Assembly (NCBI GenBank): GCA_951813325.1
Contig: OX638350.1
Coordinates: forward strand, 1,599,029 to 1,663,028
Direction of reading: 5' to 3'
Length of the DNA stretch: 64,000 nucleotides
Source: an uncultured Acidimicrobiales bacterium
GTDB taxonomy: Bacteria > Actinomycetota > Acidimicrobiia > Acidimicrobiales > Bin134
Below the pieces are notes generated by a model. The model worked only from the letters and a program-made list of their open reading frames with translations. It was not told the origin of the DNA and ran no database searches. Of the stretch, positions 14,828-64,000 are shown piece by piece; the first letter of the stretch is position 1, and the number at the start of each line of letters is the position of its first letter. The translations under genes and the position numbers were made by a program.

Positions 14828-15376
14828 TCAGCGAATCAGCAGCCGGTCGACGATCTCTTCCAGCAGGGGCTCGAGTTTTTTGGCGATGGCGTCGTTGTCC
14901 TCGCTCAGGTAGTCGTGGGGGATGACGACTCGGGGGACGTCGGGCAGGCCCAGGGAGCGGGCGACGGTATCGGCGGCGACGGCGAAGGGCTCGGTGACCA
15001 AGGTGACGGTGGGGATGCCCAGCCTCTCCAGGTTCACGGCGTCGAGCACACTGCCCGACGTGCATGAGCCTCATTTGGCCAGGCCATTGACCACCCCCGC
15101 GCAGGCCCGGAACGAGGCCAGCATATCGTCGCCGGCCGGGCGGCTGAGCACCGGCTTGTGCTGGCGGACCACGGCGGTCACATCCAGACGGTGGCGGAAC
15201 TCCCGTTCCAGCACCTCGGTGTAGCGGGTGAAGTCGGGGCCCGATGAGGGGTTGAATTCGTTGACCAGGAATCCGATGGTCAGCGTGCCTTGGGTGTGGC
15301 CCCTCCGAGGGGCTAGTTCGCCGTGGTTGACCACTACCTCGCCCCGGGGATCAACCAGCTCGCCGAGCAACTTCAT
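14828..15376 (-). CDS. UGSC family selenoprotein (TGA at codon 102 read as Sec)
   Basis: Reading the TGA at 15071-15073 (minus strand) as selenocysteine joins two halves into one 182-residue protein. Around it: GVVNGLAK-Sec-GSCTSGSVLDAV, exactly the U-G-S-C motif that names this family, followed by the conserved ERLGIPTVTLVTEPF and PHDYLSEDND. Cysteine (CGSC) or Sec versions are known; the function is unresolved but the pair looks like a redox centre. A nine-pair stem-loop follows the TGA. The start at ATG 15376 is 21 nt after the stop of the 345-residue gene upstream, suggesting an operon. Confidence 0.9.
15040..15070 (-). promoter_or_regulatory. Candidate bacterial SECIS element of the UGSC gene
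   Basis: On the minus strand, ten nt after the TGA, CGTCGGGCA (15060-15052) pairs with TGCTCGACG (15048-15040) in nine consecutive pairs, one G-U, around a GTG loop. The loop begins 20 nt after the TGA and its first base is G, matching bacterial SECIS rules. It is the strongest of the three stems in the window. Confidence 0.76.
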
Positions 15377-56452: not shown

Positions 56453-56490
56453 GGTTGAGAGTTTTCCCGCCAGCCAGTACGGTTGCCCGT

Positions 56491-59791: not shown

Positions 59792-60157
59792 GTGTTCGCC
59801 CACGATTCGGAGCGGCAGTTTGCCGAACTGCTCGACTTCTACGGTGTTGAGTGGCACTACGAGCCCGTCACCTTTGTGCTCTCCCGCAACGAGTCCGGCG
59901 AGGTGACCGAGGCGTTCACCCCTGATTTCTATCTGCCCCTGTTCGACCGCTATGTGGAGATCACCACGGCGCGCCAGAAGTACATCACTCGAAAGAACGG
60001 CAAAGTCCGCCGGTTGCGGGAATGCCATCCCGACATCGACGTGGTGGTCCTCTGCCAGCGGGACTACCGCAACCTGCTCAGCAAGTACGGCTTCGACGAT
60101 GCCTCCGGAGTGGACGGCAACCTGACCCATACCGGCGCGGGCCCCGGATCGAGCTAG
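59792..60157 (+). CDS. Small PD-(D/E)XK-like protein of unknown role
   Basis: A 121-residue protein whose layout fits a minimal restriction-endonuclease fold: SERQFAELLDFYGVEWHYEP, then TPDFYLPLFDRYVEITTARQKYI and VRRLRECHPDIDVVVL. The PD is present; the following E-I-T replaces the usual (D/E)-x-K, so catalysis may be lost or altered. The GTG start is at 59792. It sits between a MerR gene and gcvT and is probably co-transcribed. The nuclease link is inferred from pattern only. Confidence 0.65.
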   Translation: MFAHDSERQFAELLDFYGVEWHYEPVTFVLSRNESGEVTEAFTPDFYLPLFDRYVEITTARQKYITRKNGKVRRLRECHPDIDVVVLCQRDYRNLLSKYGFDDASGVDGNLTHTGAGPGSS

Positions 60158-60165
60158 CCGCCGAC

Positions 60166-61227
60166 ATGCGTTCCTCTCCGCTGGAGGGCCGGCATCGATC
60201 GCTGGGGGCCAAGATGGTTCCCTTCGGCGGCTGGGAGATGCCGCTCTCCTATCCGTCGGGAACGTTGGCCGAGCATCGGTCGTGTCGGACCGATGCGGTG
60301 GTTTTCGATGTGAGCCATCTGGGCACTCTTCGGGCCACCGGTACCGACGCCTATCACCGGCTTCAACAGGCGTTCACCAACGATCTGGCCCGGATCGGCC
60401 CCGGTCGCACCCAGTACACCCACCTGCTGGACGACGACGGCTCGGTGATGGACGACATCATCGTGTGGTGGGTGCAAGACCACAGCTTCGACGTGATGCC
60501 CAACGCGTCCAACACCGACCGGGTGCGCGACGCCCTACGCGGCATCGGCGCCGACTCCGGCTTCGAGGCCGTCGATGTGACCGGCAGCCGGGCGGTGCTC
60601 GCCGTTCAGGGTCCCGAGGCCCGCAGCCGGCTGGCCGCGGTGTCTCCCGGCGCGTCGGGGGTAGCCCGCAATTGCGTCGCCCCGGTGGAGTGGCAGGGCG
60701 CCCTTTTGACGGTGGCCGGCACCGGCTACACCGGTGAGGACGGCGTTGAGGTGGCCGTGCCTGCGGAGGCCGCCGAGCGATTCTGGGATGCGGTGATCGC
60801 AGCCGGGATCATCCCCGCCGGTTTGGGAGCCAGGGACACGCTGCGCTTGGAGGCCGGTTTGCCTCTGCACGGCCATGAGCTGGGTCCGGGCATCACCCCG
60901 CTGCAAGCGGGGCTGGCCTGGGTGGTGCGGTGGGACAAGCCGTCGTTCCGGGGGCGGGATGCGCTGGCTGCCGAGCGGGAGCAGGGGATCCACCGGCGGC
61001 TGCGGGGATTGCGAATCGAGGGCCGCCGCCCGCCCCGGAAAGGCCAGGCGGTGCTGAGGGACGGGGAGGTTGTGGGAGAGGTCACGTCAGGAAACTTCTC
61101 GCCCATGCTGGAAGCCGGCATCGCGCTGGCGTTCGTTCCCCCCGATACCGATATCGGCGATGAGCTGGCCGTGGACATGAGGGGCACGCCCACAACGGCC
61201 ACCGTGGTCAAGATGCCCTTTGTGTAG
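60166..61227 (+). CDS. gcvT: Glycine cleavage system T protein (aminomethyltransferase)
   Basis: A 353-residue GcvT. MVPFGGWEMPLSYPSGTLAEH begins the folate-binding fold (written MVPFGGWEMPLSYP then AEHRSCR), DVSHLG follows, and GARDTLRLEAGLPLHGHEL and the C-terminal EVTSGNFSPMLEAGIAL are family signatures. It transfers the aminomethyl carbon from the H protein to tetrahydrofolate. It converges with the thioredoxin-like gene, with 7 bp between stops. YgfZ-type paralogues are excluded by FGGWEMP. Confidence 0.93.
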   Translation: MRSSPLEGRHRSLGAKMVPFGGWEMPLSYPSGTLAEHRSCRTDAVVFDVSHLGTLRATGTDAYHRLQQAFTNDLARIGPGRTQYTHLLDDDGSVMDDIIVWWVQDHSFDVMPNASNTDRVRDALRGIGADSGFEAVDVTGSRAVLAVQGPEARSRLAAVSPGASGVARNCVAPVEWQGALLTVAGTGYTGEDGVEVAVPAEAAERFWDAVIAAGIIPAGLGARDTLRLEAGLPLHGHELGPGITPLQAGLAWVVRWDKPSFRGRDALAAEREQGIHRRLRGLRIEGRRPPRKGQAVLRDGEVVGEVTSGNFSPMLEAGIALAFVPPDTDIGDELAVDMRGTPTTATVVKMPFV

Positions 61228-61234
61228 TCGGACG

Positions 61235-61924
61235 CTAAGCGCCCACTGCATCCAGCACGCGGCTCTGGGGAATGCCGCCCCGCCATGAGGTGAGGATTGT
61301 ACCGTTGCGGTCCAGCAGCATCCCGGCGGGCTGACTGGAGATGCCCAGCTGCCGCCAAGATTCAAATGTCGAATCCCAGAGCATGGTGAAGGTGGTTCCG
61401 GTGGACTGCACGAAGGCTTCGGCCAGTCCGAGGTTGTCCTGGGTTCCGACTCCGATGACGGTGACCACCTCGGCGTTGTCTCGAGCGAACTGCTCGACGC
61501 CGGGGGCTTCCCGGCGGCAGGTGGGTCAATGGGGCGCCCAGAACCACAGCACGATGGGCCGCTCAGATGGGGCGAAGCTGGCCAGGTTCACGGTGGCGCC
61601 GCTGGCCACATCCACCAGCTCCACCGAGGGCAAGTCTGAATCGGGAACCGGTGTGGGTTCCGGCGCGGGCTCTGGGAGCCGGGGCGAAGCTCCCATGCTG
61701 CCGTCGTCAGAAGTCGACACCTCGGGAGCAGGATCCCCAGTGGGGACGGGCTCAGCTTCAGACAGATCGGGTGCTTGAGTACTGGTGGGCGCGGGTTCTA
61801 CCTCGGTGCTGTCGATCGCCGCAGGCTCGGCGTCTCCGCAGGCAGCCGCGAGGAGAGCGAGAGCGAGGCCCGCGGCGACAACCGCTCTCGATGGCCTGCC
61901 GCCACGGGGGATCAGACTGCTCAC
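61235..61924 (-). CDS. TlpA/thioredoxin-like lipoprotein, probable selenoprotein (TGA at 61526-61528 read as Sec)
   Basis: Reading the TGA as selenocysteine gives a 229-residue lipoprotein. The N-terminus has a basic start, hydrophobic VVAAGLALALLAAAC lipobox and a long Pro/Glu/Ser linker. The redox domain follows: RPIVLWFWAPH-Sec-PTCRREAPGVEQFA, where the thioredoxin CxxC is UPTC, then VTVIGVGTQDN and SQPAGMLLDRNG with the cis-proline (QP). Such extracytoplasmic proteins reduce or exchange thiols. The start is uncertain: GTG 61924 or GTG 61951. Reading on through the TGA keeps the frame and family match, so a simple nonsense mutation is less likely. Confidence 0.84.
61498..61525 (-). promoter_or_regulatory. 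Candidate bacterial SECIS element of the thioredoxin-like gene
   Basis: Nine nt after the TGA, CGCCGGG (61516-61510) pairs perfectly with CCCGGCG (61504-61498) around AAGCC. Opening the top pair gives a loop starting with G, 16 nt after the TGA, at the short end of the bacterial SECIS range. The high GC of the gene makes a chance hairpin more likely than in the other two cases. Confidence 0.6.
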
Positions 61925-61992: not shown

Positions 61993-63699
61993 CTATCCGA
62001 TGCGCCGGTAGGGGGCAGTCTGCTCGACGCAGGTGGGAATGTCGGGGTCGTTGGGACACGGGAACTGGAACACCAGCTCGGTCACCACATCGGGGGCCCC
62101 GAACTTGTCCGGGCCGAAGGTGGCGGGAAGCTGGTGCTGGATGTCCACCGAACCCAGGTTGGCAAAGGCGTTGTAGATCTCCTGGCGGGTGGGGTTGGGG
62201 CCGGCGTCATAGAGCGCCCGGGCCACCATGCGCATCTCGGTGCACACCGTGGAGGTCATCCCGTAGGCGCTGTCGTAGCTCCCGTACACCTCCCGCACGT
62301 GCCGGGCGCCAATAGCGCTGTTGGCCGCATAGGCCTCGTTGCACATGATGTTCAGAGGTGCGTTGAAGCTGACCACCGGGTTGTCGGGGACCCGGAAGTT
62401 TCCGGTGGGGGCGTCGTCGATGATGACGGTGCCGTTGTAAAGCTCTCCGGCGAGGTCGCCGCCAAACTGGACCACCTTGCCCGACACCAGATCGCCGGCC
62501 TGGCTGTTGAAATCCGAGTTGTAGAACTGCACGTCGCCGGGGGCGAATCCCTGGTTGACCATTTCAGAGATGAACTGGGGCAGACTCAAAACGTTGAGGC
62601 CGGGAAACAGCACATCCACACCCTCTTTCAGTATCTGCTCCACCGCGATGTCGTTGCCTTCGCGGCAAGTGGTGCCCCCGCCGCAGCCAATTTGCTCGGC
62701 TACTGCGACGTTGTAACCAGCTGCTTCCAGAGGTTCGATTGCTCCAGCTTGGAATGCCTCAGGTTGGCTTGGTGTGTCAGGCCATACCACACCGATCGTC
62801 TTGCCTTCCAGAGCGCCGCTAGCGATAATCGCCGCGACCATGTTGGACAACGAATCCTCAGCAATGGGGCTTAGGGAATACAAGCGTCCTGGGGCATTTT
62901 CGTGAAACTCTCGAGGATTGCCCTGGGTGGTCAGGAATAACGTGTCGTGATCTTTTGCGATGCACTCGGTGCCGCTGCCTTGGAACCCAGAGGTGTTGAC
63001 CACGATTACCGCGTTGTAGTCCTCGGTGGCCTCGATACAGGCTTGGTTGCGCAGGGTGTCGATGTCCTCGCCGCCACCGCCCAACGCGGACACCTCCACG
63101 AGACGGAGGTCGATCTTGCGGCCCCAGATGCCGTTGCAGTCCTCGTTGATCACCTTGGTGAAGGCCTCGAACATATCCACAACGTCGCCAACCGGGATAG
63201 CAAAGCCGATGCCCTCCAGCTCCTCCAGCTTGGTGCGGAGGTGGACGATGGTGATGGAGTCCTCGGTGATGCCGGCGCCGGTGGCCTGCGGCGGCGAATC
63301 CGGGTCGGGCGTGGCCGTGCAGAACACGTCGAGCGGCTGGAACGGATGCGACCGGTCGAATGTCTTGTGGAACTCGATGAAAAAGTCGCCCCGGGGCTCG
63401 TCGAAACCGATATCCACCGGCGCCTCGGGGGCCGGCTCGGATGACTCGTCTCCGTCACCGGAGTCAGATGGCCCATCGGGCTCGTCGGGGGCCGGGGCGG
63501 CCGCCTCCTCGGCCGGTGCGGGCTCGCCGCCGTCGCCGGAGTCGGATGGCTCATCAGGCCCGCCGGGCGCCGGGGCCGCCGTCTGCTCCGACTGTGCGGG
63601 CCCGGCACCGCCGTCGTCGTCGTTGCCGCCTCCACAGGCTACGGCCACGAGCACGAGCACCAGCAGCGCTCCCCAGAATTTCAGCATCCTATGAGACAC
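61993..63699 (-). CDS. ABC transporter substrate-binding lipoprotein (type 1, branched-chain amino acid-like)
   Basis: A 568-residue lipoprotein. The signal peptide has MLKFWGALLVLVLVAVAC as lipobox region. A long acidic linker follows (repeated EPSDSGDG, PAPAEE, about residues 30-105). The body is a type 1 periplasmic-binding fold: ITEDSITIVHLRTKL, AVIVVNTSGFQGSG, KTIGVVWPDTPSQP. Small amides or amino acids are likely ligands; permease genes are not in the window. GTG 63699 follows GAGAGGGG. The linker is a good recombination target. Confidence 0.88.
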   Translation of the reverse strand: MSHRMLKFWGALLVLVLVAVACGGGNDDDGGAGPAQSEQTAAPAPGGPDEPSDSGDGGEPAPAEEAAAPAPDEPDGPSDSGDGDESSEPAPEAPVDIGFDEPRGDFFIEFHKTFDRSHPFQPLDVFCTATPDPDSPPQATGAGITEDSITIVHLRTKLEELEGIGFAIPVGDVVDMFEAFTKVINEDCNGIWGRKIDLRLVEVSALGGGGEDIDTLRNQACIEATEDYNAVIVVNTSGFQGSGTECIAKDHDTLFLTTQGNPREFHENAPGRLYSLSPIAEDSLSNMVAAIIASGALEGKTIGVVWPDTPSQPEAFQAGAIEPLEAAGYNVAVAEQIGCGGGTTCREGNDIAVEQILKEGVDVLFPGLNVLSLPQFISEMVNQGFAPGDVQFYNSDFNSQAGDLVSGKVVQFGGDLAGELYNGTVIIDDAPTGNFRVPDNPVVSFNAPLNIMCNEAYAANSAIGARHVREVYGSYDSAYGMTSTVCTEMRMVARALYDAGPNPTRQEIYNAFANLGSVDIQHQLPATFGPDKFGAPDVVTELVFQFPCPNDPDIPTCVEQTAPYRRIG

Positions 63700-63701
63700 G
63701 G

Positions 63702-64000
63702 CTACCCCTCTCCGTTGCCTGGCGACGAACAGTAGCCGATGGTGTTGCCCGATGTGCGCTGTCGATGCCGGCGTCGAGCACATCCATCGGGCAGGCGACC
63801 GGCGACGACGCCCGAGGCGTTGGGGTGCAGCGGCTCGGGATCGCCGAACCCCAGGGTGCCGGGGAATTCCTCGGTATCGGCCAGATCGCGCCGGGCAACA
63901 GCGGCGGTGTTCAATTCCTCGGCATAGCGCTGCACGGTGGAATTGACCGTGGGACCGGGAACCGAGGGAGTGGTCTCAATGCGGGGCTTTTGGGTTTGTG
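63702..64000 (-). pseudogene. Truncated periplasmic adaptor-like gene (5' end outside window)
   Basis: The minus-strand frame is open from the right edge to a stop at 63702. Its first part reads VQRYAEELNTAAVARRDLAD then TEEFPGTLGFGDPEPLHPN, the signature of HlyD/peptidoglycan-binding-type efflux adaptors of actinobacteria (recollection). After GVVAG the sequence turns into arginine-rich, unrelated residues. Either a frameshift or a truncation occurred, or the true gene ends early. It lies directly upstream of the substrate-binding protein gene. Confidence 0.5.

Follow-up and report, generated by a model that had tools for sequence, protein, structure and literature searches.

A probable selenocysteine form of the actinobacterial DsbE/DsbF-type thioredoxin-fold lipoproteins in an uncultured Acidimicrobiales bacterium

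In the window analyzed here, a 64,000-nucleotide stretch of the genome of an uncultured Acidimicrobiales bacterium, the frame of an exported thioredoxin-like lipoprotein meets a TGA where the first cysteine of the active site is expected. Does this codon end the protein or encode selenocysteine (Sec), and what would such an enzyme do? The preliminary description placed the TGA correctly in a UPTC motif but did not give the strand: the gene is on the minus strand (61924..61235), and the plus strand contains no such protein. Judged from sequence, the gene very probably encodes a selenoprotein that acts as a thiol-disulfide oxidoreductase, with a probability of about 0.93, a figure that excludes the direction of the exchange. 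The features of the locus are listed in Table 1.

Table 1. Features of the Sec gene and its upstream neighbor (window positions).
Feature	Position	Strand	Details and basis
Selenoprotein gene	61235..61924	-	229 aa, GTG start 61924, TAG stop 61237..61235, one in-frame TGA (Sec133); orthologues
Lipoprotein signal peptide, residues 1-29	61838..61924	-	Lipobox LAAAC with Cys29 (LALLAAAC); read from translation
Pro/Glu/Thr/Ser-rich low-complexity linker, residues 30-94	61643..61837	-	Read from translation
Thioredoxin-fold domain, residues 95-229	61238..61642	-	Pfam Redoxin at 96-219, structure model, PDB matches 3ios and 1lu4
TGA, Sec133, first residue of UPTC	61526..61528	-	Translation, homologues
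TGC, Cys136, presumed resolving cysteine	61517..61519	-	Invariant in family alignment
Second, less conserved GC-rich hairpin between UGA and SECIS	61498..61516	-	Pairing in 78.0% of cells
SECIS hairpin UCGAGC-AGUUC-GCUCGA	61481..61497	-	Apical loop begins 34 nt past UGA; conservation, covariation
Pro199 (SQP), candidate cis-Pro	61328..61330	-	Motif SQPAGM
Periplasmic-binding-protein-like lipoprotein, upstream, co-directional	61993..63783	-	Peripla_BP_6 24.6 bits, below cut-off 31.7

The active site reads WFWAPH-U-PTC-RREAP (in a longer stretch, VLWFWAPH-U-PTC-RREAPGVEQFAR), and the lipobox cysteine sits 104 residues ahead of Sec133. The protein qualifies as a lipoprotein by pattern, from its signal peptide and LAAAC box; the same crude rule finds a lipobox in 33 of the 53 family members, and several of the others are truncated where a contig or frame ends. 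The length of the linker differs among relatives. Both Redoxin (50.8 bits) and AhpC-TSA (50.5 bits) exceed their Pfam cut-offs and, together with the thioredoxin fold, place the protein in the Redoxin/AhpC-TSA superfamily. The second cysteine and the cis-proline had been described as intact: the former is Cys136, and Pro199 is the candidate for the latter. In the protein alignment (A3), which took in 42 of the 53 family genes, the Pro199 column holds Pro in 31 members, His in seven and Ser in four. The His form (SQH) is seen in tandem partner genes of congeners (e.g., L026, L027, L029, L032 and L041) and in L077 and L085, the Ser form in four other members. Either replacement could alter metal binding or the range of substrates.

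The first question is whether the TGA is conserved. A search of 99 genomes, at the order level and closer and including the own genome, covered 21 congeners; in 19 of these, the best family match contains the in-frame TGA, and 15 of the 21 carry two tandem copies, each with the TGA. Of the two exceptions, the contig of G010 begins just past the codon, and in G012 both copies are missing the active-site stretch. In this latter case (L088, G012:C207), the SECIS stretch is missing as well, and the copy that was read shifts frame; the gap may be a true loss or an assembly fault at a hairpin-rich repeat. The own genome has one gene of the family at E<=1e-12. From the loci, 58 motif-bearing genes were extracted and 53 kept, leaving out three other thioredoxins (L063, L064 and L066), one gene at a contig edge (L042) and one spurious frame (L079 at 5835). 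Codon 133 is TGA in 46 of the 53 and TGC or TGT in seven, the in-frame UGA thus being aligned with Cys in homologues. The Cys-form members, from Microthrixaceae, a Sporichthya metagenome-assembled genome and genomes of the order, answer the call for CPTC homologues with CP[A/F/T/L]C at this site.

Among 396 Actinomycetota genomes searched with a profile at E<=1e-22, 44 have a match; 52 matches are listed, and an in-frame TGA lies within 31 of them (along with a TAG in one case), its placement having been read only where the locus was fetched. The remark that Sec is uncommon in such actinobacterial proteins is hence wrong for this lineage. Since the TGA is kept across independent genomes, chance is excluded, and so is sequencing error, which the preliminary description had proposed to check in the reads. 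A reading of TGA as Trp was also rejected: the codon ends 20 of the 38 long open reading frames picked in the window, so the genetic code is not changed, and the homologous residue is Cys. That the TGA is a true stop, an error or a mark of decay, with the frame continuing by chance, is hardly credible: it is the commonest stop in those 38 frames and a standard-code annotator would split the gene, but the congeners and many other families keep both the codon and an intact domain after it, Cys136 is invariant, and an RNA hairpin is under constraint. Codon 133 is very probably read as selenocysteine. The original proposal of Sec at the first CxxC position of an exported thioredoxin-fold lipoprotein is borne out by the Cys homologues, the SECIS-type hairpin and the independent genomes.

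The genome also encodes the machinery that a selenoprotein calls for. SelA (396.5 bits), SelB (275.1), SelD (356.9) and tRNA-Sec (67.5) are all over cut-off; SelA and SelB adjoin at 3363270..3360348, SelD lies at 2952029 and tRNA-Sec at 3377883..3377792. The SelD gene itself has a TGA, and no hairpin was found there with the SECIS pattern used. Among the 77 order-level genomes outside the genus, a selA match is present in 15/15 with the TGA form (match at E<=1e-20, counts taken by hand) versus 32/62 without it (p = 2.5e-4). Over all 99 genomes, the figures are 34/35 versus 34/64, with a p of 2.3e-6 that is inflated by close relatives. G014, 93% complete, has two TGA copies and no selA match. 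In G040 (L046, L073), a strong selA match (450.1 bits) is found, yet the family matches that were read are only Cys forms.

A SECIS prediction had been proposed for 61490-61528. A hairpin is indeed present, but at 61497..61481, at the 3' end of that stretch and just past it. In the bacterial SECIS model, as given in the review PMC13188914, a G stands in the first two positions of the apical loop, 16-37 nt from the UGA, with an MFE <= -7.5; here, the loop is AGUUC, at 34 nt, and the hairpin alone reaches -8.0 kcal/mol. Both hairpins downstream of the TGA together give -23.7 kcal/mol (z -3.28). With at least five of six pairs and a loop AGUUN, the SECIS is formed in 44/46 Sec genes; the exceptions, without a hairpin at this offset, are the two L086 genes, which were left out of the hairpin alignment (A1), yet counted in the 44/46. 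Over the 44 aligned rows (39 distinct), 97.4% of the helix cells are paired. Two pairs are altered on both sides (6 cells), from C-G to G-C and from U-A and A-U to C-G, and the covariation score was equalled by none of 500 shuffles. Sliding the partner strand cuts the pairing to 13-43%. The seven Cys genes form at most three of six pairs at the SECIS position, where 38.1% of their cells are paired and no covariation signal is seen.

Genes fetched afterwards provided an independent check of this hairpin. At least five pairs and a loop starting with AG were found in 15/18 of these held-out Sec genes and in 0/17 Cys genes; the raw tallies were 16/19 and 0/18, before the removal of L093, which duplicates L076, and of a spurious frame at L133. 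The stems include new ones, TCGCGC/GCGCGA and TTGCAC/GTGCAG, the loops are AGUU or AGGU, and three of the Sec genes (L101, L106 and L142) have no hairpin at the offset. Over both strands of the window, 29 of 127,880 positions show a full match to the SECIS at that offset. An Rfam scan of 61300-61650 gave no SECIS or other match, so the case for the SECIS was built on comparison and not on a library.

The GC-rich hairpin at 61516..61498 was initially considered as the SECIS and then rejected for its lower conservation. It is more stable alone (-10.3 vs. -8.0 kcal/mol) and closer to the UGA; the 34-nt hairpin would then be incidental. This is very improbable, as the pairing of the GC-rich hairpin over the 44 genes is accompanied by slid controls that covary about as much, whereas the 34-nt hairpin is nearly always paired and recurs in the held-out genes. 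In several tandem copies, the GC-rich hairpin is also weaker. Its only role may be to bring the UGA nearer to the SECIS, as a possible spacer.

Other likely Sec genes are found in the same genome. A coding-potential scan of the window gave three sites, one of them credible; it missed the peroxiredoxin at 2189 and is therefore not exhaustive. At 15073 on the minus strand lies another likely Sec gene with the motif AK-U-GSC-TSG, resembling by eye a catalogued UGSC family; its hairpin, CGTCGGGC-AGTGT-GCTCGACG, lies 18 nt past the TGA, so that a loop of this kind is found there at another spacing. Further genes with an in-frame TGA (window 2189 on the plus strand, L002 and L006) encode two peroxiredoxins with RGUTIQ and PGUTTQ and a TlpA-like protein with SSWUGC, and their hairpins differ from the 34-nt SECIS. 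In total, 4/9 AhpC-TSA matches of the genome carry a TGA.

The gene neighborhood was considered as a clue to the substrate, with little gained. The upstream binding-protein-like gene and the downstream convergent gene recur in the same order in G007, and other neighbors surround the Sec gene in the more distant relatives looked at. By eye, the convergent gene (60022-61227, plus strand) reads like the aminomethyltransferase GcvT, and a GcvH-like gene is seen at 56455.

The AlphaFold2 model of the thioredoxin-fold domain is confident, with a pLDDT of 96.0 and a pTM of 0.91. Foldseek ranks Mycobacterium tuberculosis DsbF (3ios; TM 0.81/0.83, 34% identity) and MPT53/DsbE (1lu4; TM 0.77/0.79, 30% identity) first, with ResA from rank 3, and the nearest solved sequences agree (3ios, 6.9e-17; 1lu4, 3.4e-15). 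The closest characterized relatives by sequence and fold are DsbF and MPT53/DsbE, not TlpA proper. These share with the Sec protein a secreted or tethered thioredoxin-fold domain, EAP after the active site and a QPA cis-Pro loop. Their active sites, WFWAPWCPTC in DsbF and WFWTPWCPFC in MPT53/DsbE, have Cys and not Sec at the first position, a CxxC in place of the UxxC found here; DsbF reads KPAVLWFWAPWCPTCQGEAP where the Sec protein reads RPIVLWFWAPHUPTCRREAP. Bacillus subtilis ResA and StoA are likewise extracytoplasmic thioredoxin folds, but with Cys sites. No NCBIfam cut-off was reached by the window protein (bits/cut-off: DsbE TIGR00385, 39.2/123.15; ResA NF002854, 36.9/170; StoA NF041202, 35.9/210; TlpA NF047696, 22.7/230).

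The protein is read here as the Sec form of an actinobacterial DsbE/DsbF/TlpA-type thiol-disulfide oxidoreductase, from which we infer its chemistry; a role in thiol-disulfide exchange is well supported by this family membership. SelB with Sec-tRNA(Sec) would decode UGA 133 as selenocysteine, guided by the hairpin that follows 34 nt later within the coding mRNA. The product would be exported and lipid-anchored via Cys29, the disordered linker keeping the thioredoxin-fold domain off the membrane. In thiol-disulfide exchange of the actinobacterial DsbE/DsbF (TlpA/ResA-like) type, Sec133 would be the attacking nucleophile and Cys136 would resolve the mixed selenenylsulfide.

Sec could also be inserted into an enzyme that is mainly a peroxidase, in the manner of a peroxiredoxin, with peroxides oxidizing Sec133 and Cys136 resolving it. 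Sec accelerates peroxide chemistry, and AhpC-TSA and Redoxin match the protein equally well. This role is nevertheless unlikely: a UxxC in a WFWAP context resembles DsbE/DsbF, and the Sec peroxiredoxins of the own genome carry different motifs, PGUTTQ and RGUTIQ.

Within thiol-disulfide exchange, the direction is less clear. As an oxidant, the protein would insert disulfides in exported proteins like M. tuberculosis DsbE and DsbF and be re-oxidized by a DsbB-like partner. Two DsbB-family matches and no VKOR match are found in the genome, but no DsbB gene was seen adjoining the Sec gene. Moreover, a CxxC site usually has a lower redox potential when it contains Sec, which disfavors this role. 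An oxidant is therefore somewhat doubtful, even if the closest solved relatives are described as such: according to the available text of PMC3853704, M. tuberculosis DsbE and DsbF promote the oxidative folding of hirudin and show no reduction of insulin. Reduction or repair of extracytoplasmic thiols is slightly favored as the main role, its direction and partners being deduced; the same properties of DsbE and DsbF speak against it. The M. tuberculosis enzymes have been assigned to a DsbD-like or Rv2877c partner (PMC3853704); in the own genome, the only CcdA/DsbD-type match lies beside a Cys-type exported thioredoxin-like protein and not beside the Sec gene.

The distribution of Sec and Cys was followed on a tree of 71 rows (47 Sec, 24 Cys) and 125 columns, with the Sec/Cys site masked, L026-L041 thinned to five, and L093 and the spurious L133 frame dropped. 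The Sec/Cys label needs five changes, against 20.2 in shuffles; a first tree (70 rows, less Cys-rich) likewise needed five. A Microthrixaceae-type Cys pair is nested within three successive Sec branches with starred support and is a good, well-supported case of Sec-to-Cys reversal. In bacteria, such reversals are described in PMC13188914 as rare, documented mainly for FdhA and SelD. Rooted with the outgroup, the tree implies two gains and three losses at equal costs; with a gain cost of two, one gain and five losses result, tied with a Sec root. The f88 rows, which share the MPT53 active-site motif and have no SECIS hairpin, fall in a mostly Sec clade of open branching order. The deeper order is only weakly fixed, because of the 125 columns and because loci were picked by likeness to a mostly Sec family. 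Tentatively, Sec might be ancestral in a large actinobacterial branch of the DsbE/DsbF type, the scattered Cys enzymes being later reversals; these would include the Microthrixaceae pair and perhaps also the rows that carry the mycobacterial MPT53/DsbE active-site motif.

Selenoproteins of this kind are already catalogued. Among the 119 Sec families or subfamilies counted in the 2026 review, its Table 1 contains a Redoxin family protein (PF08534, UxxC; high-confidence prediction, representative HEU0032618.1), with the same Pfam family and motif as the Sec protein (PMC13188914). The same table holds a thiol-disulfide isomerase-like protein (cd02966, UxxC) and a UGC-containing TlpA family, with Sec in a TlpA-like fold as here. 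Members of the latter carry WAxxUGC, and their NCBIfam model NF041054 gives the window protein 27.0 bits (cut-off 300). As UxxC redoxin and TlpA-like selenoproteins are catalogued, the Sec lipoprotein belongs to a known kind. The words Actinobacter-, Actinomycetota, lipoprotein and periplasm are absent from the main text of the review, and no paper naming the Sec lipoprotein family was found in the open-licence PMC literature. New here are the lineage-wide conservation, the covarying SECIS at a fixed spacing, the tandem copies and one well-supported Sec-to-Cys reversal.

Standard gene callers would truncate these genes at their TGA. The clear actinobacterial SECIS (GC-AGUU/AGGU-GC at a fixed 34 nt) can serve as a search pattern for further overlooked selenoproteins, and the natural Sec/Cys pairs of a DsbE/DsbF-like enzyme allow the advantage of Sec to be measured. 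For the organisms themselves, the Sec lipoprotein would place selenium chemistry on the cell exterior in a large actinobacterial group that is mostly uncultured.
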